From Flectonema sp. DT1601 (Eukaryota; Euglenozoa; Diplonemea; Diplonemida; Diplonemidae): 64,000 bases of DNA. Below are positions 1,100 through 37,652 of the stretch, in pieces (position 1 is the first letter of the stretch; the number at the start of each line of letters is the position of its first letter). Location of the stretch: the NCBI GenBank assembly GCA_964019425.1, contig OZ025805.1, positions 344,501-408,500 of the forward strand, given 5' to 3'. The notes beneath the pieces are model-generated. The model saw only the letters and a list, made by a program, of their open reading frames with translations. It ran no database searches and had not been told where the DNA came from. A program made the translations under genes and the position numbers.

Positions 1100-1126
1100 T
1101 CTAACAGAACCTTTCCCACCTCACAG
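1100..1126 (+). promoter_or_regulatory. Probable spliced-leader acceptor of LRR genes
   Basis: A pyrimidine-rich stretch (TTCTTTCTAACAG, then CTTTCCCACCTCACAG) ends in AG at 1126, 20 nt before the ATG of gene A. The same sequence precedes genes B (AG at 3156), C (5186), E (20971), F, G and H (about 39665). Position and composition fit a trans-splice acceptor, with a short A/T-rich 5' UTR following. It could also be the 3' end of a cis-intron with an upstream leader exon. RNA evidence is lacking. Confidence 0.6.
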
Positions 1127-1146
1127 CAAATTATTTAAAAAAGACA

Positions 1147-2301
1147 ATGCAAGTTTTCGTGACGTGTCCTGATTGGGGACTCCCCGCAGTGACAGTGACG
1201 GCTGGTGCTGATTCGGTTGTGAGCGACGTGTTGACGGCGGCGGCTGAGGAATGGGATGTGGATCCGGATGAAGTTGAACTCTCGTTTGCTGGTGATACCC
1301 TTTGCGAAACTGATCGGCTGGCAGATCATGGAGTGGTTGCAGACAGCGAGTTGGAAATGTGGAAGAAGCAGTTTAGGATATTCGGTAAAAGCTGGTTTGT
1401 TGATGCAAAACGGGAGAAGCTGCTTCTTTGGATGAGAGACCACATTACGGAGTATTTATGTCTGGACACTGCCACATTCACAGAAGATGGTTGCCTCACT
1501 GTTGACGGTAAGCTGCTTCCTTCAGATGCCGGACAGATTGTTTTCCGCAATTCAAATTCCAACAGCACAGCCATGTCATCAGTTACCACTATCGGAGATA
1601 AGTTCTTGTCTTCCTGTTCAGAAATCAATTCTCTTGACCTTTCAGGTCTAAGTAGTGTCACCGCTATTGGAGATAAATTCTTATATTTCTGTTCAGAAAT
1701 CACTTCTGTAAACCTTCCAGATCTCAGTAGTGTCACCACTATTGGAGATAAATTCTTATTTTATTGTTCAGCGATCACTTCTGCTGACCTTTCGGGTCTA
1801 AGTAGTGTTACTGTTGTTGGAGATTTGTTCTTGTGTTCCTGTTCACAAATCACTATTCTAGACCTTTCTAGTCTTCATAGTGTCACCACTATTGGTCGTG
1901 GTTTCTTGTTTTCCTGTAAATTTACTTCTCTTGACCTTTCGGGTCTTACAAGTGTTACCACAATTGGAAATTCTTTTTTGTGGGACTGTCAACAAATTAC
2001 TTCTCTTGACCTTTCAGGTCTTTCTAATGTCACCGATATTGGAGGTCAATTCTTATATCATTGTTCAAGGATCACTTCTGTTGACCTTTCGAGTTTAAGT
2101 AGTGTTACTGTTATTGGAGATTATTTCTTGTTTTCCTGTAAACAAATTGCTGCTCTTGACCTTTCAGGTCTTAGTAGTGTCACCACTATTGGTTATGACT
2201 TTCTCAGTGAATGCGACTCTCTTGAATCTGTGCAGCTTCCTGAAAGTAATAGCGCTCTCTTTGAGGAGTCTGTGAAAGCAGCGATTGATCATTCAGGATA
2301 A
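1147..2301 (+). CDS. Ubiquitin-like/LRR protein A
   Basis: This intact 384-aa protein has two parts. Residues 1-75 look like a ubiquitin-like beta-grasp domain: it starts MQVFV, has FAGDTLCETDRLADHG where ubiquitin has FAGKQLEDGRTLSDYN, and ends in a beta-strand-like SELEMW. A linker with WFVDAKREKLLLWMRDHI follows, then nine 25-residue LRR units of the BspA-like type (VTTIGDKFL..CSEITSLDLSGLSS). A conserved tail ends in AAIDHSG. There is no diglycine after the ubiquitin-like domain, no signal peptide and no membrane segment, so a cytosolic interaction or adaptor role is possible but unproven. The ATG at 1147 is the first after the splice acceptor at 1126. The protein is identical to B. Confidence 0.85.
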   Translation: MQVFVTCPDWGLPAVTVTAGADSVVSDVLTAAAEEWDVDPDEVELSFAGDTLCETDRLADHGVVADSELEMWKKQFRIFGKSWFVDAKREKLLLWMRDHITEYLCLDTATFTEDGCLTVDGKLLPSDAGQIVFRNSNSNSTAMSSVTTIGDKFLSSCSEINSLDLSGLSSVTAIGDKFLYFCSEITSVNLPDLSSVTTIGDKFLFYCSAITSADLSGLSSVTVVGDLFLCSCSQITILDLSSLHSVTTIGRGFLFSCKFTSLDLSGLTSVTTIGNSFLWDCQQITSLDLSGLSNVTDIGGQFLYHCSRITSVDLSSLSSVTVIGDYFLFSCKQIAALDLSGLSSVTTIGYDFLSECDSLESVQLPESNSALFEESVKAAIDHSG

Positions 2302-3176
2302 AGTGGTGAGTTGATTCTTAAAGTTTTGTTTTTTGTTATTTTTGTTTTATTAATTACTTGACCTTCGTGTACATTCTGACTAAAATATGAAAACTTCTTA
2401 TCAAAGATTACGGAATAAGAACAATCATCGATTTGAGAACTACTTTAAAAGGTATTACGGTCACATAAAAGAAGGGAAAGAAAGGTAAGAATAGAAAATA
2501 ATAATTAAAATATGAATCTGTCAGAATATTTGAAAAAGTAAATAAGTCAAAAAAAATGCTCCACAAGGCCGTGACCGTGGTATACGTTTCTCCAAACTTT
2601 TGGTTGGAAATGTAAGTTTTCCCTTAATAAAAAGTTCATTGTGACGATAACAACCCCATTTTTATTTTCCTTTTTAATACTTTCTTAATATTTTATTGCA
2701 TGGCATTTACTCCAGATCGAAGTTATTATTATTTTTAAAACAGCGACGCGGATGTAAATTATTTGAGACAGAGGCTATCTGGAGTTCTACATTTTATATT
2801 TTACTCTAACTTCTGACTTCTTAAGGAAAATAAATACATGAAGTAGAAATGTAAGGAAGTACAGTATTGATGTATGTGTTTGAACTGTTCAATAATCAGA
2901 AAGACTCACAAGCAGCGATTCGTACTCCTGTTTTTCGTTTGAAATCAATGAATAATGTAAACCTTGTGCTGAATGAGTCACATCCTTGTAGTGTTCACTT
3001 TTATTCATTCAGGTCACTGAAATAGATGAATCCTTTAGTAAAACAGTATTCATACCCCTTTGAGGGAATGTAATTACATGTCGCATCCTCGTAGTATTCG
3101 ATACCCAGATGTCACTTGTACAAGTTCTTTCTAACAGAACCTTTCCCACCTCACAGCAAATTATTTAAAAAAGACA

Positions 3177-4331
3177 ATGCAAGTTTTCGTGACGTGTCCT
3201 GATTGGGGACTCCCCGCAGTGACAGTGACGGCTGGTGCTGATTCGGTTGTGAGCGACGTGTTGACGGCGGCGGCTGAGGAATGGGATGTGGATCCGGATG
3301 AAGTTGAACTCTCGTTTGCTGGTGATACCCTTTGCGAAACTGATCGGCTGGCAGATCATGGAGTGGTTGCAGACAGCGAGTTGGAAATGTGGAAGAAGCA
3401 GTTTAGGATATTCGGTAAAAGCTGGTTTGTTGATGCAAAACGGGAGAAGCTGCTTCTTTGGATGAGAGACCACATTACGGAGTATTTATGTCTGGACACT
3501 GCCACATTCACAGAAGATGGTTGCCTCACTGTTGACGGTAAGCTGCTTCCTTCAGATGCCGGACAGATTGTTTTCCGCAATTCAAATTCCAACAGCACAG
3601 CCATGTCATCAGTTACCACTATCGGAGATAAGTTCTTGTCTTCCTGTTCAGAAATCAATTCTCTTGACCTTTCAGGTCTAAGTAGTGTCACCGCTATTGG
3701 AGATAAATTCTTATATTTCTGTTCAGAAATCACTTCTGTAAACCTTCCAGATCTCAGTAGTGTCACCACTATTGGAGATAAATTCTTATTTTATTGTTCA
3801 GCGATCACTTCTGCTGACCTTTCGGGTCTAAGTAGTGTTACTGTTGTTGGAGATTTGTTCTTGTGTTCCTGTTCACAAATCACTATTCTAGACCTTTCTA
3901 GTCTTCATAGTGTCACCACTATTGGTCGTGGTTTCTTGTTTTCCTGTAAATTTACTTCTCTTGACCTTTCGGGTCTTACAAGTGTTACCACAATTGGAAA
4001 TTCTTTTTTGTGGGACTGTCAACAAATTACTTCTCTTGACCTTTCAGGTCTTTCTAATGTCACCGATATTGGAGGTCAATTCTTATATCATTGTTCAAGG
4101 ATCACTTCTGTTGACCTTTCGAGTTTAAGTAGTGTTACTGTTATTGGAGATTATTTCTTGTTTTCCTGTAAACAAATTGCTGCTCTTGACCTTTCAGGTC
4201 TTAGTAGTGTCACCACTATTGGTTATGACTTTCTCAGTGAATGCGACTCTCTTGAATCTGTGCAGCTTCCTGAAAGTAATAGCGCTCTCTTTGAGGAGTC
4301 TGTGAAAGCAGCGATTGATCATTCAGGATAA
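3177..4331 (+). CDS. Ubiquitin-like/LRR protein B, identical to A
   Basis: This is the second tandem copy and encodes the same 384 residues as gene A: ubiquitin-like domain (residues 1-75), linker, nine LRR units and the conserved AAIDHSG tail. Leader, probable splice acceptor (AG at 3156) and 3' flank are duplicated along with the gene, so both copies should be expressed alike. Their identity suggests the duplication is younger than the split of A/B from C, whose LRR units differ widely. Confidence 0.85.
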   Translation: MQVFVTCPDWGLPAVTVTAGADSVVSDVLTAAAEEWDVDPDEVELSFAGDTLCETDRLADHGVVADSELEMWKKQFRIFGKSWFVDAKREKLLLWMRDHITEYLCLDTATFTEDGCLTVDGKLLPSDAGQIVFRNSNSNSTAMSSVTTIGDKFLSSCSEINSLDLSGLSSVTAIGDKFLYFCSEITSVNLPDLSSVTTIGDKFLFYCSAITSADLSGLSSVTVVGDLFLCSCSQITILDLSSLHSVTTIGRGFLFSCKFTSLDLSGLTSVTTIGNSFLWDCQQITSLDLSGLSNVTDIGGQFLYHCSRITSVDLSSLSSVTVIGDYFLFSCKQIAALDLSGLSSVTTIGYDFLSECDSLESVQLPESNSALFEESVKAAIDHSG

Positions 4332-4896
4332 AGTGGTGAGTTGATTCTTAAAGTTTTGTTTTTTGTTATTTTTGTTTTATTAATTACTTGACCTTCGTGT
4401 ACATTCTGACTAAAATATGAAAACTTCTTATCAAAGATTACGGAATAAGAACAATCATCGATTTGAGAACTACTTTAAAAGGTATTACGGTCACATAAAA
4501 GAAGGGAAAGAAAGGTAAGAATAGAAAATAATAATTAAAATATGAATCTGTCAGAATATTTGAAAAAGTAAATAAGTCAAAAAAAATGCTCCACAAGGCC
4601 GTGACCGTGGTATACGTTTCTCCAAACTTTTGGTTGGAAATGTAAGTTTTCCCTTAATAAAAAGTTCATTGTGACGATAACAACCCCATTTTTATTTTCC
4701 TTTTTAATACTTTCTTAATATTTTATTGCATGGCATTTACTCCAGATCGAAGTTATTATTATTTTTAAAACAGCGACGCGGATGTAAATTATTTGAGACA
4801 GAGGCTATCTGGAGTTCTACATTTTATATTTTACTCTAACTTCTGACTTCTTAAGGAAAATAAATACATGAAGTAGAAATGTAAGGAAGTACAGTA

Positions 4897-5103
4897 TTGA
4901 TGTATGTGTTTGAACTGTTCAATAATCAGAAAGACTCACAAGCAGCGATTCGTACTCCTGTTTTTCGTTTGAAATCAATGAATAATGTAAACCTTGTGCT
5001 GAATGAGTCACATCCTTGTAGTGTTCACTTTTATTCATTCAGGTCACTGAAACAGATGAATCCTTTAGTAAAACAGTATTCATACCCCTTTGAGGGAATG
5101 TAA
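4897..5103 (+). other. 68-codon upstream ORF in LRR-gene leaders
   Basis: The ORF begins MMYVFELFNNQKDSQAAIRT and lies upstream of the probable splice acceptor of gene C. It recurs at 20682-20888 (gene E) and 24605-24811 (gene F). In the A and B leaders a TAG replaces a CAG near its end (about 1000 and 3030). Because the whole leader is conserved between copies, openness alone is weak evidence of coding. It matches nothing I recognise and may be only the byproduct of recent duplication. Confidence 0.3.
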
Positions 5104-5206
5104 TTACATGTCGCATCCTCGTAGTATTCGATACCCAGATGTCACTTGTACGAGTTCTTTCTAACAGAACCTTTCCCACCTCACAGCAAATTATTTAAAA
5201 AAGACA

Positions 5207-6364
5207 ATGCAAGTTTTTGTGACGTGTCCTGATTGGGGACTCCCCGCAGTGACAGTGACGGCTGGTGCTGATTCGGTTGTGAGCGACGTGTTGACAGAGG
5301 CTGCTGAGGAGTGGGATGTGGATCCGGATGAAGTTGAACTCTCGTTTGCTGGTGATACCCTTTGCGAAACTGATCGGCTGGCAGATCATGGAGTGGTTGC
5401 AGACAGCGAGTTTGAAATGTGGACGAAGCAGTTTAGGATATTCGGTAAAAGCTGGTTTGTTGATGATGCAAAACGGGAAAAGCTGCTTCTTTGGATGAGT
5501 GACCACATTACGGAGTATTTATGTCTGGACACTCCGACATTCACAGAAGATGGTTGCCTCACTTTTGACGGTTACCTGCTTCCTTTAGATGCCAAACAGG
5601 TTGCTTTCCGCAATTCAAATTCCAACAACACAGACATCTCACTGGTTACTACTATCGGAGATAATTTCTTCTTTCATTGTTCACAAATCACTTCTCTTGA
5701 CCTTTCAGGTCTTCATAGTGTCACCACAATAGGAATTCAATTCTTGTCCTGTTTACTAATCACTTCTCTTGACCTTTCAGGCCTTAGTAGTGTCACTACT
5801 ATTGGTGATTATTTCTTGTCTAACTGTTCACAAATCACTTCTGTAAACTTTTCAGGTCTTAGTAGTGTCACCACTATTGGTGATCATTTCTTGTCTAGCT
5901 GTTTACAAATTACTATTCTTGACCTTTCAAGTATCAGTAGTGTCACTACTATTGGTGATTATTTCTTGTCTAACTGTGAACAAATTACTTCTCTTGACCT
6001 TCCAGATCTAAGTAGTGTCACTTTTATTGGGAATGATTTCTTATATTCTTGTGAGCAAATCACGTCTCTTGACCTTGCAGGTCTTAGTGGTGTCACCACT
6101 ATTGGTGATCGTTTCTTATATTTCTGTGAACAAATAACTTCTCTTGACCTTTCAGGTCTTAGTCGTGTCACTACTATTGGTGATAATTTCTTGTCTTGCT
6201 GTGAACAAATCACTTCTCTTGACCTTTCAGGTCTTAGTAGTGTCACCACTATTGGTGATCACTTTCTCGATGAATGTGACTCTCTTGAATCTGTCCAGCT
6301 GCCTGAAAGTAATAGCGCTCTCTTTGAGAAGTCTGTGAAAGCAGCGATTGATCATTCAGGATAA
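5207..6364 (+). CDS. Ubiquitin-like/LRR protein C
   Basis: This intact 385-aa member of the tandem family has the same architecture as A: ubiquitin-like residues 1-75 (MQVFV start, FAGDTL motif), linker WFVDDAKREKLLLWMSDHI, nine 25-residue LRR units and the AAIDHSG tail. Its LRR units differ from A/B at many positions while the N-terminal 130 residues are nearly the same. That suggests repeat shuffling or conversion inside the LRR part. The ATG lies 20 nt after the acceptor AG at 5186. It is the third unit of the 2.03-kb spaced series; the 3' flank diverges from A/B after about 6400. Confidence 0.85.
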   Translation: MQVFVTCPDWGLPAVTVTAGADSVVSDVLTEAAEEWDVDPDEVELSFAGDTLCETDRLADHGVVADSEFEMWTKQFRIFGKSWFVDDAKREKLLLWMSDHITEYLCLDTPTFTEDGCLTFDGYLLPLDAKQVAFRNSNSNNTDISLVTTIGDNFFFHCSQITSLDLSGLHSVTTIGIQFLSCLLITSLDLSGLSSVTTIGDYFLSNCSQITSVNFSGLSSVTTIGDHFLSSCLQITILDLSSISSVTTIGDYFLSNCEQITSLDLPDLSSVTFIGNDFLYSCEQITSLDLAGLSGVTTIGDRFLYFCEQITSLDLSGLSRVTTIGDNFLSCCEQITSLDLSGLSSVTTIGDHFLDECDSLESVQLPESNSALFEKSVKAAIDHSG

Positions 6365-7820: not shown

Positions 7821-8405
7821 GTCAAAACATTGGTTCGACGTGCTGAGAATGTTCTTCTGAGTCACGTGTCACCATCACCAACTACACCCTCGTGTAAATC
7901 AGGAAACCGGAGCCTCACTCAGAATATCACCGAATGGTGGATGTCTGAGGCATCAGAACCAGACGAGTCATGCAAAGAACGCTGGATAATAAGAGACGGG
8001 GAAATAATTAAAGTCTTTAGGAGGTATCCGGAATTCGGAAAAAACTTTGTGCGGAATTAGGGGTTTTCCCTTTTATTTCTTGTTGTTTTTACAAAACTTT
8101 TTTGGGTGGTGTACAACAGAGAAAATTAAAGTTCCGGGGACCCAACGGAGAATTATAAATTATCGCGAAGGACAGTATTTGGGTTGACTTTCTTTCGAAG
8201 CTCACACTCTTGAATGTACCGCGTCATTTATGATATGCAGTACGAGAGAGGACACTTTAGTTATATTGGTAAGCCCCAGGCATGATTCAATGTAAGGATC
8301 GTATTTATATAATTGTTGCCGCCTGGCGTTTGGAACACAACATCCACACATTCTTTACACAGCAGCCATATATTAACAGCCCCTTACTCAAAAAAGAAGG
8401 CAACA
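7821..8405. other. Intergenic stretch before gene D
   Basis: No gene is recognised here. A 76-codon frame (7830-8060) lacks an ATG at its start and resembles nothing known. The leader of gene D differs from that of the other LRR genes: the usual 600-bp leader is absent, and the closest acceptor-like site is TATTAACAG ending at about 8380, 26 nt before the ATG at 8406. Confidence 0.4.
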
Positions 8406-8892
8406 ATGCAAGTTTTTGTGACGTGTCCTGGTTGGAGACTCCCTGCAGTGACAGTGACGGCTGGTGCTGATTCAGTTGTGAACGACGTGTTGACGGCGGC
8501 GGCTGGGGAGTGGGATGTGGATCCGGATGAAGTTGAACTCTCGTTTGCTTGTGATACCCTTTGCGAAACTGATCGGCTGGCAGATCATAGAGTGGTTGCA
8601 GACAGCGAGTTGGAAATGTGGAAGAAGCAGTTTAGGATATTCGATAAAAGCTGGTTTGTTGATGATGCAAAACGGGAGAAGCTGCTTCTTTGGATGAGAG
8701 ACCACATTACGGAGTACTTATATCTGGACACCCCGACATTCACAGAAGATGGTTGCCTCACTGTTGACGGTGAGCTGCTTCCTTCAGATGCCGAACAGAT
8801 TGCTTTCCGCAATTTAAATTCCAACAACACAAACATCTCACTGGTTACTACTATCGGAGATAAATTCTTGTTTCGTTGTTCACAAATTACTA

Positions 8893-8960
8893 GGGATCAC
8901 GACACCTGCCTCCTCGCGGCGGTCCCGGACGACTTCGATAGGGGTCGACAAGACGGTGTC
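8893..8960 (+). ncRNA. HDV-like self-cleaving ribozyme (LINE copy 1)
   Basis: The first 68 nt of the element can form the nested double pseudoknot of hepatitis delta-like ribozymes. P1 is GGGATC (8893-8898) with GGTCCC (8921-8926). P2 is GACACC (8901-8906) with GGTGTC (8955-8960). P3 is GCC/GGC capped by TCCTCGC, which is the L3 sequence of the HDV genomic ribozyme. P4 is CGAC (8930-8933) with GTCG (8944-8947). The joining strand after P4 has a C (8949) followed by AA, as expected for the catalytic cytosine. Cleavage would free the exact 5' end of the element, as known for R2 and L1Tc. Confidence 0.85.
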
Positions 8961-11825
8961 AAACACAAGAGATGCCAACACCATCAACACCAACCACCAC
9001 ATCCAGAGCATCCACACACTGGATGTTTCCTATCAAAGAAAGAAAGAAACAAACTGGCCCATGCCTTGAATGGCAATGGTGGAACAAGGAAGGACAGCAG
9101 AGACCGACGCCCGCGGGACGACACTCGCGACAGGGACGAGGACCGCACGGACAAGGAAGAACGCCGGCTGGCGAAACTCGAGAAGGAAAAACTCGAGTCG
9201 CTAGACGAAATCGAGGAAGAGAAGCAGCGGCTGGGGCAACAGAGAATGGCCATGGAACAGCACCACCACCAGAAGGAAACCAACCTTCAAGGACAAGAAA
9301 AACAGTTGGAACAGCAACGCCAACACCAACAACAAGAACTGCAAAGTCAGTACCACCAACAACAGCAGCAACTGCAAAGCCACCATCAGCTGAAGGAAAC
9401 GGAAAGTCTCCAGAAGGAGCAAAACCTACAGGCTCAACTCAAAGAGCAACATCAGCACCAACAGAAGGAATTGGAGAAGCAATACCGCCAACGACAACAG
9501 CAACTGGAAAGCCAGCAGCAGAAGAAGGACGCCGAGTCTGAACAGCAAACGCATCTGACTCGGTCACAACTACAGAAGGAAAAGGAATCCTTCCAGACGG
9601 AGAAGGAACGGCTCCACCTCCAGCTGGATCAGCAGCTAAAGAACGAGAAGGAGCACCTCCACCGAAAGCTCAAGGAGCAGATTGGACAGGAAAAAGTCCA
9701 ACAACAACAAAAGCTCCAACAGAAGGAAGAAGAAATTCAACGGCGTGAGGAAGAGGTGAACCGAGGACAGCACCAACTACACCAACAGCAGCAACAACTA
9801 GAGCAGCAGCAACAGCAATCGCAACATCAGCAACTGGAACTACAACAACAACGGCAACAACAACAACAACAGCATCAACAACTGGAACTGGAACAACAAC
9901 AACTACAACAGCAACTGCAACTGCAACAACATCGACAACCGCAACAACAACCGCAACAGCAACCCGTACACTACATGCAACATCAACCGTATGCAACGTA
10001 CGACACCTACGCCCAGCAGCAGCAGTCTTCCCACTACGAAGGACTACAACAGGAACTGAAGCGCGAGAGAGAGGAGAAAAGCGAACTACGCGAGATGCTC
10101 CGAACTCTCCAACAACAACTGGACGGATTGAGAGAAGAACTCAAGGCCCAACATGCTGAGGCGAAGAGGCAGCAGGAAACGGCGGGACGGGAAGCGAGAG
10201 AGATGCAAGAACGTTTCTTGCTAGAACTCGAAGCGGAACGGGTCCAGATCAGAGGACTCAACTCGCTGAGAGAAGAGGAAGAGGAACCTCAGATGGACAC
10301 CACCCCTGATCAGGAAGTAAACACGGAAGTGAAGCAAACGCCACCGGTGAAGCTGCCCCAAGACGGTATGAGGGAGCTGGACGCCTCACGCAAGAAGCTG
10401 ATGAAAGAAATCAATGAAGGGCAGGTAGCCGGACGATCGGCCATCCAAGAGCAGATGGTCCGAGAGGCCGGGAGACTGGCGCAGACTCAGAAGAGCTGGG
10501 AGAACGCAGCACGCAAGGAGCGATCCAGGGTGGATAACCTCTCGCTGGCACCGGAATACTGGCCAGAGGGAATGGCGATCACGAAGGAGCAGTACGACGC
10601 CGGTGCAAAGGGAGTACACCTCACCACCAGAGAGGAGGCAAGGAAGAGGATGTCGGGAACACCTCCGGGAGCCTGGGAAACGTTATCCCTAGTAACCCTG
10701 GAACCACCATCAGACACGGCGCAGAAAGTACAGGTAGTACTTAAGGAGACGACGAGCGACGGCGAGAAGAGAATTCTCAAGCAGCTCTGGATGACAACAC
10801 TGGGAAGGGTGGTTGTACCATCCGGAACAGACGTCGTGCGGACGGAAAGCACGAGGGAGATGGTTGTCCGGGTGGACAAAAAATGGTCCGGAGAGAAGAG
10901 ATGGTCGGAAGTGAAGCGCTCCCCGTTCAGAGCAACGGAGGAATTGAAGAAGATGCCGGGGTATGTCGATACGTACAACCCGCGGATCGGAGACCAGAGC
11001 GTCACGGTGATGCTCAGGGTGAAGGTAGCCGAAGTGAAGAACTTCCTCCGAGAATCGGGGAAGGACGGCGTCTTCACCAAGGAAAAGGATCCGAGAGAGG
11101 AACGAGCAGTGAAGGCAGCGGTCATTTGGCTACCGAAGGACGAGACGCTCGGAATCGCTCGGGACAAGGCTGTAGAAGTCGATGGAGGGCTGGGACTCGT
11201 GGTAAACGAACACGGACTTGGGCTTCGAGTGACCAGCTGGCAGGAAACGGCGGCGAGGGAGAAACTGCACCTGCCGGCTAAGCTACCGGAAACAAAGATC
11301 ACGGGGATCCCGATCGGCACAACCACCGACGAAGCGATCAAGTGGCTGATCACGAAGGAAGGCTGGGAAGTGAGGAAGACGAAGGAAGGCGTACGGAACG
11401 GCATGCGATGGATGGTCGTCCGCGGTCCGGTGAGAACGCAGGAAACCATCACGGTGGATGGCGTCCTGTGCATGGTGGAGGCTGGGAAACAGAAGGTGGA
11501 AGTCGACCCGAAACGGAAGGAGACCAAACGCCCGAATGCGACACCGACAAAACCGGAGAAAAGGCGTGACCCGACGGAGGGAACGGGAGGAAAGTGGTAC
11601 ACTCGATTGGAGTTCATCGAGTTTCATGGGAAGAAGAAGGGACAACGCCTATGGTTAGAAGCCAGCAACCCAACACCAACTACGACGGCACCTACGAAGG
11701 CAGCGACCGCAACGACAACAGCGAGAAAGGAGCCCAAGTCGACAAAAAAGAAGGAGAACAGCTCAGTGGACGAGAGATTGGACCGACTGGAACGTCTACT
11801 GATGGCGTTCATGGAACGGAATTGA
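8893..11825 (+). CDS. LINE ORF1, coiled-coil protein (copy 1)
   Basis: The frame is open from the host ATG at 8406, across the insertion junction (SQIT then RDHDTC), to the UGA at 11823-11825, 1139 codons from 8406. The element part has a charged N-terminus (KDSRDRRPRDDTRDRDED), a long Gln-rich coiled coil with many QQQ runs, and a globular C-terminal region of about 400 residues containing PEYWPEGMAITKEQYDAG and VAEVKNFLRESGKDGVFTKE, which may hold RRM-like folds. That layout resembles other LINE ORF1 RNA-binding proteins. No ATG in this frame occurs within roughly the first 110 element codons, so start from the host ATG, or non-AUG or internal start, must be considered. Confidence 0.8.
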
Positions 11826-11909
11826 CCGGCGGAGGACGGAAGGAACTGGGCGGAGACACGGAGACGTCTCCTGCTACAAGCTGGCGACGTTGAGAGGAAC
11901 CCCGGACCG
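11823..11909 (+). promoter_or_regulatory. In-frame UGA followed by 2A peptide (copy 1)
   Basis: ORF1 stops at UGA (11823-11825, next base C). The same frame is then open for 14 codons and continues as LLLQAGDVERNPGP (11868-11909), which satisfies the 2A consensus DxExNPGP. ORF2 follows without a break. 2A peptides cause ribosomes to release the upstream chain between G and P; they are known at the N-terminus of trypanosome L1Tc/ingi proteins. UGA followed by C is a leaky stop context in many eukaryotes. No AUG precedes ORF2 in frame, which suggests UGA readthrough, then 2A separation. Confidence 0.8.
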
Positions 11910-14900
11910 AGACCACGAATCGATGGGCTCACCGTGGGAACAATCAATGTCACCACACTGGAAGGAAAAATAGATGCCATCACAGATCTGAACCTAGATC
12001 TGATAGCTCTACAGGAAACTTCTCTGACGGGCCCACAGCAACGCCAGATGAAAAAACAGCTCGGTGAGAGAGGATGGGAAGCGACGTTCGGATTAGAGTG
12101 CAAATTACTAACCGATGGGCAAAAGACGTGGACGGCGGCGGGAGGCGTGGCCATCTTGACGCGCACTGGTACACCGGTGAGAAGGATAAAACATGAACGG
12201 CTCGACAACACGGGACGATTCGTACACGCGGGAGTGTCGTACGGAAATGGCAAGGTACTGCACGTATTCTCGTTCTACGGAGACGTACGTTCGGCGGTCC
12301 ACACGGAAGAGTTGATTGCGGAGATGCTCGTGGAAGCAGCAGCTCTGGGTGATGTTCCCGTATTGATAGCGGGGGACTTCAACGTCGAAACAACGGAATC
12401 GCCGGCGCTTCTGTCGGCTTTCGCACACGGACTCTGGATAGATGCCGCCGTCTCGATGGGAAACATGACACCGACAAGCGAAGCGGGAAAAGGACTTCGT
12501 AGAATCGATGCTATTCTGATGAACCGCGGGGCGGCGACAGCAATCTCGAATGACACAACGATCCATGTGCATAAGAGTGAGCTGATCCCGACACACAAGC
12601 CGGTCATCATTAGAAAGCTCAACATCTCACGCTACAACGAGAAGGCTCCTAGGCTGATAGTACCGAAACAGTTGGATACCTCCGAGACAACGGACCCGCG
12701 TGAGGGGAAGGCCGAAAGGCAACTCCACTGGACGCGAGCAGTAGCGACGGAGGATCCTGACAAGATGCTGGAGGCGCTTGGAGAGATCATCGAAAGATAC
12801 CTTCTGACGGGAAAGCTGGAGGTAAGTAACCCAGCCAAGTACACGGGACGCGGGAAGAAGCGTGAGCCTGTGATGTGGACGAATGCGGCGAAACAAGACG
12901 GGAGGGGAGCGACGTGCAGGGAAACGCGGAGAAGACTGCAGAAGATCCGCGTCCTGGAGGAAGTGACGAAAATCACAAAGCAATACGATGGTCCGACGGT
13001 GCCGTCCCACGAAGTGATGAATCTCTGGAAAAAATTACGGAAACTCGATCCGACGACGGGATCCGAAATACCACAGACGGAGGAGCTTCGGATACTACTT
13101 CAACAAGCGAGACAGGAGCAAGCGATAGAAAGCAAGAAGCTCCGAACCGAACGCATCCGCATGTGGAAACGGAATGTTGTCGATAATTGGAACGACGACC
13201 GCACGAAGGTTTTCCAGTGGATCAGGAACGTCGAGCAATCGAAGACTGTTCTGATGGAGAAGGCAGATGGAAGCTGGACGGCCAACTGCTCCGAGATGGA
13301 TGAGGCCATGCACGCGGCATGGGACCCCATACTCAAAAAGTACTTGTCAGACCCAGAACCAGACTGGATGAAGTTCGAAGAACGATACAGCAACTACATC
13401 GAGGAACACCCGATGCGATGCGAAGATATCACCGGGGGGGACGTTGCAAAAGCCCTCAGAAGGACTAGCTCGCGCAAAGCAGCTGGGGTAGACGGCTTCA
13501 GGATATCGGAGCTCAAGTTGCTACCGGAGGACATGATTCAGATGATAGCGGAATTCTACAACATGGTGGAGAGAACACACTGGCCGGAAGCACTTCTCAC
13601 AGCACTGGTGTCGGCCATACCCAAAGGGGCAGGGACGAAACCACTGGAGCAGAGACCCATTACGGTGACATCCGCACTTTACAGGCTTTGGGGCTGTATA
13701 CGTATGGAAAAGGATGTAATGGAGTGGCAAGAGAAGTGGGCTCACGACGGGCAATACGGCTACCGGAAGGGGAGATCTACGCTCGACCTCAGCTGGAAGA
13801 TAGCACTAGACGTGGAACACGCAACTCTCTACGGAGAAGAGGTTGCAGGAGTGACCACGGACTTCAGGAAGTGTTTCGACCTGATCCCGCACGACATCCT
13901 CCTGAAATTAGTGAAGGAATTGGGCCTAAGTGATAAGATCCTGAGAACTGTGACGGATGTCTACCGGCGACTCAGAAGGAGATTCAAGTTCCCGAGCGGC
14001 GTCGGAGAAGAATTTGCCACCACCAACGGAATACTGCAAGGATGCCCGCTCAGCGTGGTGCTCTTCAATGCGCTGAGCTCGATACTCAGCAAAGCAATCG
14101 AGAGGGAAGCCGATGTGACGCCCGGATCATATGCGGACGACCTGACATTGTTTGGATCACGAACGAAGCTACAAGAAGGCGTAGAAGTCGTTGCGGAGTT
14201 CTGCACCCTGACCGGACAAGAACTCGCACCTCAGAAGTGCAAGTGGTTCTCGAACAGAGACCAGGGCCAGACCAACATCACAATGGGGGACACAACACTA
14301 GACTTCGATGACAGTGTCGATATCGTGGGATGCCACCTCAGTATGAAAGGAACCACCAAGCAGATGGGGAGGATCACAGAAGAAGTGCTCGATAGAGCGA
14401 GGCGAATCCGGTTACTTCCGCTCAGATATCAAGCGAAGGAACAGATAGCTGCAGCTAGTGTCATGCCCAAGGCGCTCTTCGGAACGGCACTGTACGATCC
14501 CGATACGACGCGACTCGGACTGCTGAGAAGAGCAATGGCAACGGGGATTTTCCGCAAACTTGGAGGGAAAAGAACTAAGATGTCGCACACCATGGGCCTA
14601 ACGCTACTCTGCAAGGGACATTGTGTGGATCCCGCGACGTACATTAGGTACAATAGACTCCTTGCACTCACCAGAATGCTACCGAAGCTAACTGAGAGGA
14701 TACGCAGGGTATGGGAACACCTGCAGGAGCACACTGAAGCGACGAGGGGACCAGTCGGCCTCGCCCTGAGTACTCTGAAGGAACTTGGATGGGAATGGTC
14801 AACTTTCTCGGTCTTCGAAGGTCCGGGAGGGACGACCGAACACGGACGGCTGGATGCGGGGCGCTGGCGGCACGATGTCAGAGAGGCGTGCAGGCGTTTC

Positions 14901-16562
14901 ACCTGGAACAAAACAATTGCGGAAACGAGACGGGTAAACCTGAGAGGTATTGAAGCGGGCATCGACCGGAAAGAGACCCTGAAGGTCCTGAAGGAAGGAA
15001 AGGGCGACCCCTACCTGCGCGGAGTAGTGAAGCACTGCCTCCTGGACAACGTGTACACTGGCTCGATGAAGGCGGGAAACAAGAACTGCGCGCACTGCGA
15101 GGAGGTTGACGACGTAGAGAGGACGGAGACCCTCGAGCACGTGAACTGGGATTGCAGAGCTTATGACACAATCCGACAGGAATATCCGCAAGTGATGCTA
15201 CAAGTTCGATGCGATTGGCCCAATTGCCTGAGGCTACTCGGCATCAAGCCCGACAATGTGGAACTGCCGGCGGGGCTCACTGGAGACCTACAACGAATGT
15301 TCGCACGGATCAGGCTCCGCAGGGACGACTATCAACAACTGGAGGAGAGACGGCTGATGGTTGTGGAATACGCTGGGAACAAGGAACCGGAAGTAGTTAT
15401 GCGATACAACAACAAACTGGAAAAGTACATGCCAGTATACACCCAATGGCCCGAAGCCCTTGGATTGACCTTGTACTTGGCGCTTGCGAGCTACCTGAGG
15501 GAACTGAAGTGGCCTCGACAGCCAGACGGAGTCGGAGTCACCTTCCTGGAATTAGCGATCGACTTCGAAGCGTATGCGGGGGTTGACATACCGACCACAG
15601 TCCACGAAGGCCACGTAGCGAAGTGCACCAAAGACAGAGCCGCCGGGAAGAAAGCTGACGTCATGTGTGGACTGATGCTAAGATTGAACTTGGTTCACAA
15701 GCATTTAGAAGGCGAGGAACAAAGAACCTTTCCCGACTACTGCGTAGGAAGCAACAAAGCCTTACGTCCACTAGGAGCCCCAGTACTGAAAGGTTTGAAG
15801 AAACGACCAGCTTTTCTGATGGGAGACGAAACAGTAGACACAATTCGGAGGACGGTCCAGGAGGCGAACGACGGAAAAGCTGACAAAATCAGATTCGGCT
15901 TCGAGACTGAGTGCAGGCACTCGAACGAGAGGGAAGGGAGAGCGGAGGAATGGATAACCGCGGCACGACTTTTCCCATCAAAGGAAAAAGACGTACAGCT
16001 GAGGAGGGAGCTCTGCGAGCGAGGACCGACACGCCCGCCACCCGAGGTCGTCAAGAGACCGGGCATCGCGGAGGGACAAGGAACGATGAACTCGACGTGC
16101 TACGGACACTTCAAGAAGAAATGCAATAGTTGTCGACGGGCCGGAAACACCATCTACCAGTGCTGCCACAACCATCACACTCTGGGGGATGAAGATGGAC
16201 AAATACCGATATGGGACTTTTGCAGCAAGCACAAGCTTACTCCATGTGCAGTCTGCATAGTGATCGGCAGAGGGTCTGAGCAATGTTGCAGAAACAGCCA
16301 CCACCGATGCTGTCACCACGAGATGGCTCCCTGCAACGACTGCAAGCGGAATCCGGATCCGGAACAACGGACTGCCACGAAATGCTGCAACAAAAAGCAT
16401 CACGGGCCAATTATAAGGACGTTGACGAGGAGGGCGAAGCAGCCGACGAAGCATGATATGCAAACCAGCACATCGCTTCTAAAAGTAGGTTTCACCAAAC
16501 AAATGAAACCGAAAGCAGAGGAAACCCCGGAAAGGGAACCACAGGACAGGGGGTTAACTTAG
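11826..16562 (+). CDS. LINE ORF2, APE endonuclease and reverse transcriptase (copy 1)
   Basis: The frame continues ORF1 after its UGA; mature protein would start at the 2A proline codon 11907 (1551 aa). The apurinic-type endonuclease shows LIALQET, GDFNV (about 12375), RIDAIL and THKPV. The reverse transcriptase follows with SAIPKGAG, VTTDFRKCFDLIPHD (motif A), NGILQGCPLS (motif B) and SYADDLTLFG (motif C, about 14130). After it comes a CCHC-like cluster, CAHCEEVDDVERTETLEHVN then DC, and a Cys/His-rich tail with CYGHFKKKCNSC, QCCHNHH, CCRNSHHRC and CCNKKHHG. All key motifs are present. No start ATG exists near its beginning. It differs from copy 2 at 23 residues by my count over 1542 compared. 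Confidence 0.93.
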   Translation, partial: PAEDGRNWAETRRRLLLQAGDVERNPGPRPRIDGLTVGTINVTTLEGKIDAITDLNLDLIALQETSLTGPQQRQMKKQLGERGWEATFGLECKLLTDGQKTWTAAGGVAILTRTGTPVRRIKHERLDNTGRFVHAGVSYGNGKVLHVFSFYGDVRSAVHTEELIAEMLVEAAALGDVPVLIAGDFNVETTESPALLSAFAHGLWIDAAVSMGNMTPTSEAGKGLRRIDAILMNRGAATAISNDTTIHVHKSELIPTHKPVIIRKLNISRYNEKAPRLIVPKQLDTSETTDPREGKAERQLHWTRAVATEDPDKMLEALGEIIERYLLTGKLEVSNPAKYTGRGKKREPVMWTNAAKQDGRGATCRETRRRLQKIRVLEEVTKITKQYDGPTVPSHEVMNLWKKLRKLDPTTGSEIPQTEELRILLQQARQEQAIESKKLRTERIRMWKRNVVDNWNDDRTKVFQWIRNVEQSKTVLMEKADGSWTANCSEMDEAMHAAWDPILKKYLSDPEPDWMKFEERYSNYIEEHPMRCEDITGGDVAKALRRTSSRKAAGVDGFRISELKLLPEDMIQMIAEFYNMVERTHWPEALLTALVSAIPKGAGTKPLEQRPITVTSALYRLWGCIRMEKDVMEWQEKWAHDGQYGYRKGRSTLDLSWKIALDVEHATLYGEEVAGVTTDFRKCFDLIPHDILLKLVKELGLSDKILRTVTDVYRRLRRRFKFPSGVGEEFATTNGILQGCPLSVVLFNALSSILSKAIEREADVTPGSYADDLTLFGSRTKLQEGVEVVAEFCTLTGQELAPQKCKWFSNRDQGQTNITMGDTTLDFDDSVDIVGCHLSMKGTTKQMGRITEEVLDRARRIRLLPLRYQAKEQIAAASVMPKALFGTALYDPDTTRLGLLRRAMATGIFRKLGGKRTKMSHTMGLTLLCKGHCVDPATYIRYNRLLALTRMLPKLTERIRRVWEHLQEHTEATRGPVGLALSTLKELGWEWSTFSVFEGPGGTTEHGRLDAGRWRHDVREACRRFTWNKTIAETRRVNLRGIEAGIDRKETLKVLKEGKGDPYLRGVVKHCLLDNVYTGSMKAGNKNCAHCEEVDDVERTETLEHVNWDCRAYDTIRQEYPQVMLQVRCDWPNCLRLLGIKPDNVELPAGLTGDLQRMFARIRLRRDDYQQLEERRLMVVEYAGNKEPEVVMRYNNKLEKYMPVYTQWPEALGLTLYLALASYLRELKWPRQPDGVGVTFLELAIDFEAYAGVDIPTTVHEGHVAKCTKDRAAGKKADVMCGLMLRLNLVHKHLEGEEQRTFPDYCVGSNKALRPLGAPVLKGLKKRPAFLMGDETVDTIRRTVQEANDGKADKIRFGFETECRHSNEREGRAEEWITAARLFPSKEKDVQLRRELCERGPTRPPPEVVKRPGIAEGQGTMNSTCYGHFKKKCNSCRRAGNTIYQCCHNHHTLGDEDGQIPIWDFCSKHKLTPCAVCIVIGRGSEQCCRNSHHRCCHHEMAPCNDCKRNPDPEQRTATKCCNKKHHGPIIRTLTRRAKQPTKHDMQTSTSLLKVGFTKQMKPKAEETPEREPQDRGLT

Positions 16563-16953
16563 GTTGGCCGAACCAGTGCCTCGTCATCTCACCGTGCTAG
16601 CAAGCCTGAATGACAGCACTCAAAATGGTACATATATTCCTGTTCACAAATCACTTCTCTTGACCTTTCAGGTCTTCATAGTGTCACCACAATAGGAATT
16701 CAATTCTTGTCCTGTTTACTAATAACTTCTCTTGACCTTTCAGGCCTTAGTAGTGTCACTACTATTGGAAGTGCATTCTTGTCTTACTGTTCACAAATCA
16801 CTTCTGTAAACTTTTCAGGTCTTAGTAGTGTCACCACTATTGGTGATTATTTCTTGTCTTTCTGTTCACAAATCACTTCTCTTGACTTATCATATCTTTG
16901 TAGTGTCACTACAATTAGTTATTGTTTCTTGAATTCCTGTTCACAAATTACTT

Positions 16954-20274: not shown

Positions 20275-20971
20275 AAAAAAAAAAGAGAGAACTAAATAGT
20301 CAGTCACTCACCATCTTTTCTTTTCAACACACGCGAGAGTTAATATTTGAAAAAGTAAAAGTCAAAAAAATGCTCCACAAGGCCGTGACCGTGGTATACG
20401 TTTCTCCAAACTTTTGGTTGGAATTGTAAGTTTTCCCTTAATAAAAAGTTCATTGTGACGATAACAACCCCATTTTTATTCTCCTTTTTTAATACTTTCT
20501 TAATATTTTATTGCATGGCATTCACTCCAGATCGAAGTTATTATTATTTTTAAAACAGCGACGCGGATGTAAATTATTTGAGACAGAGGCTATCTGGAGT
20601 TCTACATTTTATATTTTACTCTAACTTCTGACTTCTTAAGGAAAATAAATACATGAAGTAGAAATGTAAGGAAGTACAGTATTGATGTATGTGTTTGAAC
20701 TGTTCAATAATCAGAAAGACTCACAAGCAGCGATTCGTACTTCTGTTTTTCCTTTGAAATCAATGAATAATGTAAACCTTGTGCTGAATGAGTCACATCC
20801 TTGTAGTGTTCACTTTCATTCATTCAGGTCACTGAAACAGATGAATCCTTTAGTAAAACAGTATTCATACCCCTTTGAGGGAATGTAATTACATGTCGCA
20901 TCCTCGTAGTATTCGATACCCAGATGTCACTTGTACGAGTTCTTTCTAACAGAACCTTTCCCACCTCACAG
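20275..20971 (+). repeat. Conserved LRR-gene leader (gene E copy)
   Basis: This matches 431-1126 and the corresponding leaders of B, C and, from about 24420, F. It includes CTCCACAAGGCCGTGACCGT, GCATTCACTCCAGATCGAAG, the 68-codon upstream ORF (20682-20888) and the acceptor AG at 20971. Long conservation of non-coding leader suggests recent duplication or shared expression signals. Confidence 0.75.
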
Positions 20972-20985
20972 CAAATTATTTAAAA

Positions 20986-22524
20986 ATGACAATGCAAGTT
21001 TTCGTGACGTGTCCTGATTGGGGACTCCCCGCAGTGACAGTGACGGCTGGTGCTGATTCGGTTGTGAGCGACGTGTTGACGGCGGCGGCTGAGGAGTGGG
21101 ATGTGGATCCGGATGAAGTTGAACTCTCGTTTGCTGGTGATACCCTTTGCGAAACTGATCGGCTGGCAGATCATGGAGTGGTTGCAGACAGCGAGTTTGA
21201 AATGTGGACGAAGCAGTTTAGGATATTCGGTAAAAGCTGGTTTGTTGATGATGCAAAACGGGAGAAGCTGCTTCTTTGGATGAGAGACCACATTACGGAG
21301 TATTTATATCTGGACACTGCGACATTCACAGAAGATGGTTGCCTCACTGTTGACGGTGACCTGCTTCCTTCAGATGCCAAACAGGTTGCTTTCCGCAATT
21401 CAAATTCCAACAGCACAGCCATGTCATCAGTTACCACTATCGGAGATGAGTTCTTGTATGAGTGTTCAATCACTTCTCTTGACCTTTCAGGTCTTAGTAG
21501 TGTCACTACTATTGGAGATAAGTTCTTGTATTTCTGTTCAGAAATCACTTCTGTTAACCTTTCAACTCTTAGTTGTGTTACCATTATTGGTAATAATTTC
21601 TTTTATTACTGCAATCATATAACTTCTCTTGACCTTTCAGGTCTTAGTAGTGTCACCGCTATTGGTTATAATTTCTTGTCTTCCTGTTCCCAAATCACTT
21701 CTCTTGACCTTTCAGGTCTTGGTAGTGTCACCACCATTGGTGAAGGTTTCTTTTCTTTCTGTGAACAAATCACTTCTCTTGACTTTTCATGTCTTAGTAG
21801 TGTCACCACTATTGGTGATGAATTCTTGTCTTCCTGTGAACAAATCACTTCTCTTGACCTTTCAGGTCTTAGTAGTGTCACCACTATTGAGAATGATTTC
21901 TTGTCTTGCTGTAAACAAATCACTTCTCTTGACCTTTCAGGTCTTGGTAGTGTCACCGCTATTGGGAATTATTTCCTGTATTACTGTGATGAAATCACTT
22001 CTCTTGACCTTTCAGGTCTTAGTAGTGTCACCACTATTGGGAATTATTTCCTGTATAACTGTGAACAAATCACTTCTCTTGACTTTTCATGTCTTAGTAG
22101 TGTAACCACTATTGGTGATGAATTCTTGTCTTCCTGTGAACAAATCACTTCTCTTGACCTTTCAGGTCTTAGTAGTGTCACCACTATTGGAGATAGATTC
22201 TTGTCTTTCTGTAAAGAAATCACTTCTGTAAACTTTTCAGGTCTTAGTAGTGTCACCACTATTGGTGATTATTTCTTGTCTTTCTGTGAACAAATCACTT
22301 CTCTTGACCTTTCAGGTCTTAGTAGTGTCACCACTATTGGTGATTATTTCTTGTCTTCCCGTTCACAAATTACTTCTCTTGACCTTTCAGGTATTAGTAG
22401 TGTCACAACTATTGGTTATCGCTTTCTCGATGAATGTGACTCTCTTGAATCTGTGCAGCTTCCTGAAAGTAATAGCGCTCTATTTGAGGAGTCTGTGAAA
22501 GCAGCGATTGATCATTCAGGATAA
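20986..22524 (+). CDS. Ubiquitin-like/LRR protein E, 14 LRR units
   Basis: This is the longest intact family member, 512 aa. The first ATG after the acceptor (20971) is at 20986, giving MTMQVF; the family start MQVF is two codons later. It has a ubiquitin-like domain, the WFVDDAKREKLLLWMRDHI linker, 14 LRR units of 25 residues (A and C have nine), and the AAIDHSG tail. Some neighbouring units are near-identical at DNA level (for example the DFSCLSSVTTIGDEFLSSC units at about 21790 and 22090), which shows internal repeat amplification. Function is unknown; a protein-interaction role is inferred from the fold only. Confidence 0.87.
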   Translation: MTMQVFVTCPDWGLPAVTVTAGADSVVSDVLTAAAEEWDVDPDEVELSFAGDTLCETDRLADHGVVADSEFEMWTKQFRIFGKSWFVDDAKREKLLLWMRDHITEYLYLDTATFTEDGCLTVDGDLLPSDAKQVAFRNSNSNSTAMSSVTTIGDEFLYECSITSLDLSGLSSVTTIGDKFLYFCSEITSVNLSTLSCVTIIGNNFFYYCNHITSLDLSGLSSVTAIGYNFLSSCSQITSLDLSGLGSVTTIGEGFFSFCEQITSLDFSCLSSVTTIGDEFLSSCEQITSLDLSGLSSVTTIENDFLSCCKQITSLDLSGLGSVTAIGNYFLYYCDEITSLDLSGLSSVTTIGNYFLYNCEQITSLDFSCLSSVTTIGDEFLSSCEQITSLDLSGLSSVTTIGDRFLSFCKEITSVNFSGLSSVTTIGDYFLSFCEQITSLDLSGLSSVTTIGDYFLSSRSQITSLDLSGISSVTTIGYRFLDECDSLESVQLPESNSALFEESVKAAIDHSG

Positions 22525-24288: not shown

Positions 24289-25476
24289 ATAATCAAGTTT
24301 TATAATTAAATCATCTCCGTATCAGAAGTGTTTTCTGAATAGACTGAAATGAATAAAAAATACCCTGTGATGATAACAACTCCATTTTTTATTCTCCTTT
24401 TTTTATTTTCACTAAAATCTTTCTAATATTTTATTGCATGGCATTCACTCCAGATCGAAGTTATTATTATTTTTAAAACAGCGACGCGGATGTAAATTAT
24501 TTGAGACAGAGGCTATCTGGAGTTCTACATTTTATATTTTACTCTAACTTCTGACTTCTTAAGGAAAATAAATACATGAAGTAGAAATGTAAGGAAGTAC
24601 AGTATTGATGTATGTGTTTGAACTGTTCAATAATCAGAAAGACTCACAAGCAGCGATTCGTACTTCTGTTTTTCCTTTGAAATCAATGAATAATGTAAAC
24701 CTTGTGCTGAATGAGTCACATCCTTGTAGTGTTCACTTTCATTCATTCAGGTCACTGAAACAGATGAATCCTTTAGTAAAACAGTATTCATACCCCTTTG
24801 AGGGAATGTAATTACATGTCGCATCCTCGTAGTATTCGATACCCAGATGTCATTTGTACGAGTTCTTTCTAACAGAACCTTTCCCACCTCACAGCAAATT
24901 ATTTAAAAATGACAATGCAAGTTTTTGTGACGTGTCCTGATTGGGGACTCCCCGCAGTGACAGTGACGGCTGGTGCTGATTCAGTTGTGAACGACGTGTT
25001 GACGGCGGCTGCTGAGGAATGGGATGTGGATCCGGAGGAAGTTGAACTCTCGTTTGCTGGTGATACCCTTTGCGAGACTGATCGGCTGGCAGATCATGGA
25101 GTGGTTGCAGACAGCGAGTTGGAAATGTGGAAGAAGCAGTTTAGGATATTCGGTAAATGCTGGTTTGTTGATGATGCAAAACGGGAGAAGCTGCTTCTTT
25201 GGATGAGAGACCACATTACGGAGTATTTATATCTGGACACTGCCACATTCACAGAAGATGGTTGCCTCACTGTTGACGAGGGGTTGCTTCCTTCAGATGC
25301 CAAACGGATTTCCTTCCGCTATTTAAATTGCAATAGCACGGTAATCTCACAGGTTACTGCTATTGGAGATAACTTCTTGTGTAACTGTTCAGAAATCACT
25401 TCTCTTGACCTTTCAGGTCTTAGTAGTGTCACCAGTATTGGAGATGATTTTTTGTTTAATTGTTCACAAATCACTT

Positions 25477-25549
25477 GGGTAACGAAACTCGGATAGCGCG
25501 CCTCCTCGTGGTGTTACCTGGATGCACCTTGTGTGTAACTAGAGTGCTG
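25477..25549 (+). ncRNA. HDV-like ribozyme of element S2
   Basis: P1 is GGGTAAC with GTTACCT, fully paired. P2 is TAGCGC with GTGCTG, with a T-G wobble where S1 has C-G. P3 is GCC/GGT capped by TCCTCGT, with the same J4/2 AACTAGA. Compared with S1 and S3 the changes mostly keep pairing, which supports the fold. Confidence 0.72.
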
Positions 25550-28890: not shown

Positions 28891-29869
28891 TTTTAGAAAG
28901 GAATGGTTTTACTGATTTGAATAAGATAAATAAATTGCTAACACCGAGTAATGACATTTATTTTGAACAATAAAATTAGATTAGACTTGTGAGACATTTA
29001 GCCCTGATCAGTAGCATAGGATCAGAGTTTATATTCGGTTGGGAATATTTGAAAAAAATAAGCAGGGAAGTTCTCCATTGATATCGGAAATGAGTACCTA
29101 GGCATGGGTCACATCCTTGTAGTGTTCACTTTTATTCATTCAGGTCACTGAAACAGATGAATCCTTTAGTAAAACAGTATTCATACCCCTTTGAGGGAAT
29201 GTAATTACATGTCGCATCCTCGTAGTATTCGATACCCAGATGTCACTTGTACGAGTTCTTTCTAACAGAACCTTTCCCACCTCACAGCAAATTATTTAAA
29301 AAAGACAATGCAAGTTTTTGTGACGTGTCCTGATTGGGGACTCCCCGCAGTGACAGTGACGGCTGGTGCTGATTCAGTTGTGAACGACGTGTTGACAGAG
29401 GCTGCTGAGGAATGGGATGTGGATCCGGAGGAAGTTGAACTCTCGTTTGCTGGTGATACCCTTTGCGAAATTGATCGGCTGGCAGATCATGGAGTGGTTG
29501 CAAACAGCGAGTTGGAAATGTGGAAGAAGCAGTTTAGGATATTCGGTAAAAGCTGGTTTGTTGATGATGCAAAACGGGAGCAGCTGCTTCTTTGGATGAG
29601 AGATCACATTGCGGAGTATTTATGTCTGGACACTGCCACATTCGCAGAAGATGGTTGCCTAACTGTTGACGGTGACCTTCTTCCTTCAGATGCCGAACAG
29701 GTAGCTTTCCGCAATTCAAATTCCAACAGCACAGCCATGTCATCAGTTACCACTATCGGAGATGAGTTCTTGTCTTCCTGTTCACAAATTACTTCTCTTG
29801 ACCTTTCAAGTCTTAGTAGTGTCACCACTATAGGAAACTTATTCTTGTCTTCCTGTTCACAAATCACTT

Positions 29870-29937
29870 GGGATCACGACACCTGCCTCCTCGCGGCGGT
29901 CCCGGACGACTTCGATAGGGGTCGACAAAACAGTGTC
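29870..29937 (+). ncRNA. HDV-like ribozyme (LINE copy 2)
   Basis: It has the same 68-nt fold as copy 1: P1 GGGATC/GGTCCC, P3 GCC/GGC with loop TCCTCGC, and P4 CGAC/GTCG. P2 here is GACAC with GTGTC, one pair shorter than in copy 1 because the 3' strand reads AGTGTC. The joining strand is ACAAAAC with the candidate catalytic C followed by AA. Confidence 0.82.
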
Positions 29938-37578: not shown

Positions 37579-37652
37579 GTTGGCCGAACCAGTGCCTCGT
37601 CATCTCACCGTGCTAGCAAGCCTGAATGACAGCACTCAAAATGGTACATATA

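Follow-up and report, generated by a model that had tools for sequence, protein, structure and literature searches.

The window, a stretch of 64,000 nucleotides, carries two LINE copies of one family (family A), inserted at the same site of genes with leucine-rich repeats (LRRs) and made up of the following features.

8893-16636, + strand: LINE copy 1, family A, 7744 bp, in an LRR_5 (BspA-type) gene; 5' and 3' ends common to four other copies
8406-8892, + strand: 5' part of the host LRR gene, in the ORF1 frame; the AUG at 8406 is the first of the open frame, and LRR_5 is matched in sister genes
8895-11822, + strand: copy 1 ORF1 inside the LINE, 976 codons; N-terminal half Gln-rich, 0 Pfam matches
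11823-11825, + strand: UGA closing copy 1 ORF1, with AAT before and C after (UGA-CCGG)
11826-11885, + strand: copy 1 spacer PAEDGRNWAETRRRLLLQAG, 20 codons, of which the last 17 were compared; amino-acid constrained in families A-D
11886-11909, + strand: copy 1 2A core DVERNPGP (exact motif match)
11910-16562, + strand: copy 1 ORF2 past the 2A, with a Cys/His-rich C-terminus and a TAG stop (PF03372, PF00078)
29870-37652, + strand: LINE copy 2, family A, 7783 bp, at the same LRR site as copy 1 (shared ends)
29872-32838, + strand: copy 2 ORF1, 989 codons, in a frame shared with the upstream LRR gene
32839-32841, + strand: copy 2 UGA (frame reading)
32902-32925, + strand: copy 2 2A core (exact motif match)
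32842-37578, + strand: copy 2 ORF2 frame, 1578 codons, TAG stop (frame reading)
29850-29869, + strand: copy 2 5' target-site duplication TTCCTGTTCACAAATCACTT, part of an LRR repeat (flank comparison)
37653-37672, + strand: copy 2 3' target-site duplication, followed by the rest of the LRR gene (LRR_5 in 37630-38496)

The flanks of copy 1 show only an imperfect target-site duplication match. The open frame containing ORF1 of copy 1 extends from 8313 to 11825, ends in the TGA at 11823-11825, and reopens directly behind it for 1578 codons (11826-16562) up to a TAG; 117 codons of ORF1 precede the first AUG inside the LINE. Pfam places the endonuclease of copy 1 ORF2 (PF03372) at about 11973-12542 and the reverse transcriptase (PF00078) at about 13641-14267. 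The enzyme ORFs combine an APE-type endonuclease with a reverse transcriptase (EN-RT), those of families B and F additionally matching PF14529, and motif searches of the window and the assembly found D(V/I)ExNPGP near the enzyme ORF start. Exact matches to DVERNPGP numbered two in the window and zero in 100 shuffles. A sequence-only reading of the locus had described ORF1 and ORF2 as lying in one frame, separated by a single UGA followed by C and then by DVERNPGP, with no ORF2 AUG ahead of the endonuclease motifs. Both observations are correct for the two window LINEs, as the first AUG of the family A ORF2 frame is codon 75, past the LQET stretch and within the Pfam endonuclease match. The 14 codons given for the gap between the UGA and the 2A hold as far as LLLQAG; however, 20 codons separate the TGA from the D of DVERNPGP.

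The assembly searched (89.5 Mb, 92 contigs) contained 137 matches to the 2A pattern and none to the reversed pattern. Junctions were read at 136 of these (98 fetched, the 2 window copies and 36 more), the 137th being H-type by elimination, and family names were assigned from the letters of the 2A; because copies were located by this motif, the survey was blind to the stop codon. An in-frame TGA followed by C was present at the family-specific distance in 129/136 junctions (A 15/15, B 8/8, C 22/23, D 16/18, F 38/38, G 24/27, H 6/6, E 0/1) and, with the exceptions included, at the homologous place in 134/136. Among the exceptions, L140 and L156 keep TGA-C and have gained a second stop, L018, L048 and L080 keep it with indels, L133 is truncated, and L017 is a decayed copy with TGG in place of TGA and a frameshift behind it. 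Spacers are 17, 18, 20, 28 or 48 codons long, and the ORF1 frame is preserved at every length. Counted from the first AUG, ORF1 stays open over 474-1369 codons in 14 of 22 copies (A, B, C, F, G), the other eight being interrupted; most D copies and all six H copies have at least 160 open codons. The ORF1 stop is TGA in all seven families; in comparison, the intact ORF2 stops (16 of 22 read) are TAG in nine (A, D, G), TAA in seven (B, C, F) and TGA in none. The sequence-only reading had rested on retention of the UGA in two young copies, and both do keep it, but the layout is far wider, spanning seven families, two ORF1 types and two distant EN-RT clades. Since copies within a family are young and the families are themselves related by descent, the effective sample is a handful of lineages rather than 136; ORF2 of B and C, for example, is 96% identical.

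The codon 5' of the UGA was AAN in 129/129 copies (AAC 68, AAG 30, AAA 16, AAT 15), and the letters 3' of it were CTTG in 45, CTAG in 44, CGGC in 16, CCGG in 15, CATG in 8 and CTCG in 1. By family, F and H read AAC UGA CUAG, C and G UGA-CUUG (CUCG in one G copy), D UGA-CGG, A UGA-CCGG and B UGA-CAUG; in the 38 copies of family F the 6 nt upstream and the 8 nt downstream of the TGA are invariant, while neighbouring columns vary. An excerpt of PMC4132726 reports efficient readthrough at UGA-CUAG in four mammalian genes and about 1.5% for UGA-CUA alone, a section of PMC4207609 describes UGA-CU(A) readthrough as working in fungi and human cells, and type II readthrough is defined in an extract of PMC3542737 by UGA followed by CGG or CUA. 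This type II context is present in D, F and H; C and G have CUU, A has CCG and B has CAU, and neither UGA-CCGG nor UGA-CAUG matched the weak-stop motifs compared from the published excerpts. With one representative per family, no consistent RNA fold was detected past the UGA, nor a consistent counterpart of the type II stem-loop about 8 nt downstream. Structure z-scores were -3.7 over 40 nt in B, weakening over longer stretches, -3.1 to -3.6 over 80-100 nt in D, -1.4 to +0.9 in A, C, G and H, and +0.6 to +2.1 in F; with z strong in B and D only, RNA structure gives no consistent support as a readthrough stimulator.

Over the 17 spacer codons, pairs among families A-D (one sequence per family) differ by 8-13.5 silent versus 0-2.5 amino-acid changes (pS 0.52-0.94, pN 0.00-0.07). 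The A-D spacer thus accepts silent changes and hardly any amino-acid changes, and is therefore likely translated; such a constraint is what readthrough predicts. Constraint was weak between F1 and F2 (pS 0.19, pN 0.13), and F versus G over 15 codons gave pS 0.76 and pN 0.38. Together with the junction survey, the A-D constraint lends support to the reading proposed from the window, in which the UGA would be read through and the 2A would then act. The survey of other copies for the UGA and the spacer, in-frame TGA-C in 129/136 and amino-acid constraint in A-D, points the same way: the majority of copies have neither a sense codon in place of the UGA nor an ORF2 start by AUG or frameshift, with TGG in 1/136 and an AUG in 9/129.

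The main rival to readthrough is an independent start of ORF2, in which ribosomes would terminate at the UGA and then reinitiate, or enter internally, at a non-AUG spacer codon. Reinitiation links the ORFs of other LINEs, by stop-start in SART1 and by proposal in mammalian L1 (excerpt of PMC5972666); in P0013, a EukProt protein of a related species, an AUG lies 24 codons ahead of the 2A, suggesting that AUG initiation or stop-start may operate elsewhere; and some near-cognate codons (AGG, ACG) do occur in A-D spacers. However, an in-frame AUG between the stop and the 2A is absent in 120/129 copies, which does not fit a SART1-type stop-start AUG at or just after the stop. Of the nine copies with such an AUG (B 4, G 4, D 1), those placed have it 3 codons ahead of the 2A core in B and D, and around codon 22 of the 48 in the G spacer. 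No near-cognate start was found at one shared place before the 2A in all of A-D: A and D have AGG at -15, B and C have ACG at -10 and AGG at -8 with none upstream of the WAE residues, and the sole one in H is ATC at -4. Reinitiation, moreover, needs no ORF1 frame, yet 7/7 families preserve it, and an independent start leaves UGA-C as the ORF1 stop in every family unexplained; we consider it unlikely.

The nearest LINE proteins come from Diplonema papillatum, EukProt transcriptomes and an ENA source, and the assembly carries the euglenozoan spliced leader CCAACGATTCTAAAGCTACAGTTTCTGTACTTTATTG, which resembles the diplonemid leader, with head-to-tail match runs on C16 and C20. Both point to a euglenozoan, probably a diplonemid, and leave an assignment to trypanosomes unsupported. 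A spliced-leader search at LINEs covered the window and 20 long loci. From its 5' end, L014 reads the whole spliced leader, 12 nt, the ORF1 AUG, 1091 codons, TGA and 1287 codons, and the 5' ends of L010 and L020 (family F) and L015 (family G) are the last 15-16 nt of the leader in the same reading order. In all four, the first AUG opens ORF1, the first stop is TGA and ORF2 follows, 1287-1326 codons long. These LINEs have the appearance of reverse-transcribed bicistronic mRNAs that were trans-spliced and still contained the UGA, and because four full-length copies start with the leader, one mRNA would carry both ORFs and the UGA.

This origin bears on whether the stop might be lost from the RNA itself. 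Excision of the UGA within a small non-canonical intron, or its editing into a sense codon, would yield a continuous ORF, and an excerpt of PMC12621601 describes non-canonical introns as predominant in hemistasiid diplonemids. LINE copies are RNA-derived, yet 134/136 junctions hold TGA-C (the one TGG being in the decayed L017), as do the four full-length copies bearing the spliced leader; a reverse-transcribed, trans-spliced mRNA that kept its TGA argues against removal by splicing or editing, and this explanation appears very improbable. The spliced-leader arrays in the genome would also allow ORF2 to be expressed from its own trans-spliced mRNA with a downstream AUG, the spacer and 2A being relics. 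Against such an mRNA, codon 75, the first ORF2 AUG in family A, lies inside the endonuclease, the A-D spacer is constrained as protein, and the spliced-leader sequences at LINE 5' ends stand ahead of ORF1, so that we give this alternative very little weight.

Spliced-leader sequence was also observed in other settings. Full leaders stand directly before B/C/D-type LINE starts, outside arrays, at 8666-8702 (-) of L014 and 8961-8997 (+) of L016, and full non-array leaders precede other sequence at 7829 (+) of L015 and 5575 (+) of L017, perhaps as retrocopies of trans-spliced mRNAs. At the family F 5' ends of L010 and L028, short tandem runs of TTCTGTAC lie ahead of the partial leader, as if reverse transcriptase had slipped near the 5' end.

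Alternatively, the UGA might regularly encode an amino acid, Trp or another, in the nuclear code of this organism, or it might stand for selenocysteine; reassignment is described for some trypanosomatids in an excerpt of PMC12153298. Each window copy, however, has 1 TGA in 2719 or 2757 codons versus 48-49 TGG, and of the 16 long ORFs in the window, not all of them established genes, 4 have TGA as their stop, in no case with C after it. In-frame UGA throughout genes, as in a UGA-reassigned nuclear code, was not seen in the window copies or the 16 long ORFs, and Rfam returned no SECIS family in the window at E up to 1. A sense UGA of either kind is hardly credible here.

Altogether, UGA readthrough followed by 2A separation is quite probably how the ORF2 protein is made. 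Most ribosomes would stop at the UGA and release the ORF1 protein, while a few would read through in frame and translate the spacer and the 2A, which would free the ORF2 protein from the ORF1 part; the UGA would thereby set a low ORF2:ORF1 ratio, and the 2A would remove ORF1 from the enzyme. The layout, its recurrence, the AAN UGA C context, the spacer constraint and the spliced-leader copies are read directly in the assembly; the occurrence of readthrough, its rate and the activity of the 2A are inferred.

Each component of this arrangement has parallels. L1Tc is a single ORF with the 2A behind its own start; here, in contrast, a large ORF1 comes first and is closed by an in-frame UGA-C. No HDV-like ribozyme, a trait of L1Tc/ingi Pr77, was found for the window in Rfam at E up to 1, a search that a divergent one could escape. 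The LINEs described here resemble 2A-bearing non-LTR retrotransposons (T. cruzi L1Tc, sea urchin and other APE-type elements) in the 2A near the EN-RT N-terminus, a position that an excerpt of PMC4981915 gives for T. cruzi and sea urchin retrotransposons. With known UGA-readthrough systems (type II UGA-CGG/CUA viruses; OPRL1, OPRK1, AQP4, MAPK10) they share a UGA followed by C with the same frame downstream, UGA-CUAG in F and H, UGA-CU in C and G, UGA-CGG in D and the post-stop coding constraint of A-D; unlike in those systems, the UGA here lies in a LINE and in series with a 2A, reads UGA-CCGG in A and has no consistent downstream structure. Like SART1 and L1, these are two-ORF LINEs in which the second ORF of a single mRNA encodes the enzyme, but 120/129 have no AUG between the stop and the 2A, the frame is kept and a 2A is present. 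D. papillatum P0007 and P0008 and EukProt P0004 are among the closest EN-RT relatives of A; P0004 and P0007 have a 2A, which, unlike that of family A, lies within one continuous ORF behind another N-terminal part, with no stop. P0004 has the RNWAE..LLLQA 2A module with a different N-terminal domain, to which Pfam gave no match; we take this domain in P0004 and P0005, standing where ORF1 would be, to be Josephin-like. P0005, a EukProt relative of the A enzyme, reads NPGL, which may be a 2A relic. An NPGP-type motif was found in 15 of the 127 database relatives (P0003-P0129). Among the matches listed in a literature search, covering titles and the starts of abstracts, none described an in-frame stop and a 2A between LINE ORFs, and an earlier description is possible.

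The joint between the ORFs also appears to be a place of exchange. Family A ORF1 is homologous to that of B and C (48-58%), and D ORF1 was grouped with A-C by its similar 5' start and 3' end; by contrast, the A EN-RT groups with P0004-P0008 in an RT tree that contains no trypanosomatid rows, and its RT shares only 24-28% identity with those of D, F and G. In family H, of which only pieces were compared, the end of ORF1 is F/G-like (39-41% over about 100 residues) and the start of EN-RT is D-like (72% over 194). Family A would thus be a chimera of an ORF1 of type I and an EN-RT from a distant clade, and H would join the end of a type II ORF1 to an EN-RT start resembling that of D. No homology between ORF1 types I and II was detectable (hhalign probability 0.45%), Pfam gave no match to the ORF1s of A, B, F and G, and predicted models of the two types had mean pLDDT of 39.7 and 35.7. 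Both chimeric families preserve the UGA-C and the frame. A and C are identical at 27/32 residues around the 2A, and since identity fades beyond, the exchange is placed approximately, near the UGA-2A joint.

Family A differs from its relatives at the 5' end. All five A copies compared start with GGGATCACGACACC and enter the 75-bp LRR repeat at one and the same position, whereas B-D starts read GGGACCACAC(A/G)AAATG and so include an AUG that A is without. Between copies 1 and 2, the 117 codons from the junction to the first AUG gave dS 0.50 and dN 0.10 (27.3 silent, 26.7 replacement changes); the five copies form two subtypes, and copy 1 versus L011 of the same subtype, with 4 silent and 8 replacement changes (ratio 0.54), is weaker evidence. 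By eye, the first 57 nt are identical between the two subtypes, and a start of family A's own may lie inside them. The ORF1 frame was open for at least 96 codons upstream at 13 of 22 5' junctions (9 reaching the edge of the fetched stretch; flanks judged by eye), at six the flank was LRR-like and an in-frame stop closed it within some 41 codons, and three (L115, L121, L124) lay outside LRR sequence; as the insertion site is fixed, the in-frame relation to the LRR gene counts as one event and not 13. The predicted public protein P0133 is an LRR-ORF1 fusion that ends in MERN. A constrained 117-codon N-terminus with no AUG before it, in frame inside LRR genes, suggests that family A probably borrows its start from the host LRR gene: the start-less LINE would insert at one phase of the 75-bp repeat, and the host AUG would drive an LRR-ORF1 fusion. 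The full three-step relay, with a host-AUG LRR-ORF1 fusion, AAN-UGA-C readthrough and a 2A that frees EN-RT, along with a UGA-2A joint serving as a socket for module trading, is a proposal that we hold to be evenly balanced between right and wrong.

The means by which LINEs with two ORFs obtain a small amount of enzyme and a large amount of ORF1 protein from a single mRNA are understood only in part. The seven families would represent one serial recoding design in natural contexts from UGA-CUAG to UGA-CCGG, with two exchanges near the joint, and their junctions make readthrough directly testable in a little-studied eukaryotic group. The UGA-C and 2A layout also provides a rule for spotting unannotated ORF1-ORF2 pairs. 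Capture of a host-gene start, if true, would be a further LINE strategy, one not described for LINEs to our knowledge.

Several minor observations concern insertion sites and their surroundings. Tens of base pairs upstream of the B/C/D 5' ends of L163, L165 and L166, tRNA-like letters were seen by eye; tRNA targeting of B/C/D was rejected, as ARAGORN found 0 tRNAs in four short upstream pieces. Family A LINEs (window 8406-8895 and 29308-29872; L012, L013, L110-L126) occupy mostly one LRR_5 site, often in the host frame, and the five copies compared have no AUG among their first 117 codons. From 16950 of the window onward, a different sequence, beginning GGGGAACGAAACTCGGACAGCGCGCC, adjoins the LRR repeat, likewise at the ATTACTT target, and is perhaps a short element sharing the family A target. 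Repeated genes with a common MQVFVTCPDW N-terminus, some with LRR_5 repeats, lie at 1105-6364, 20950-22524, 24873-25496 and 41561-42241 of the window and are a BspA-type LRR gene family, partly in tandem.
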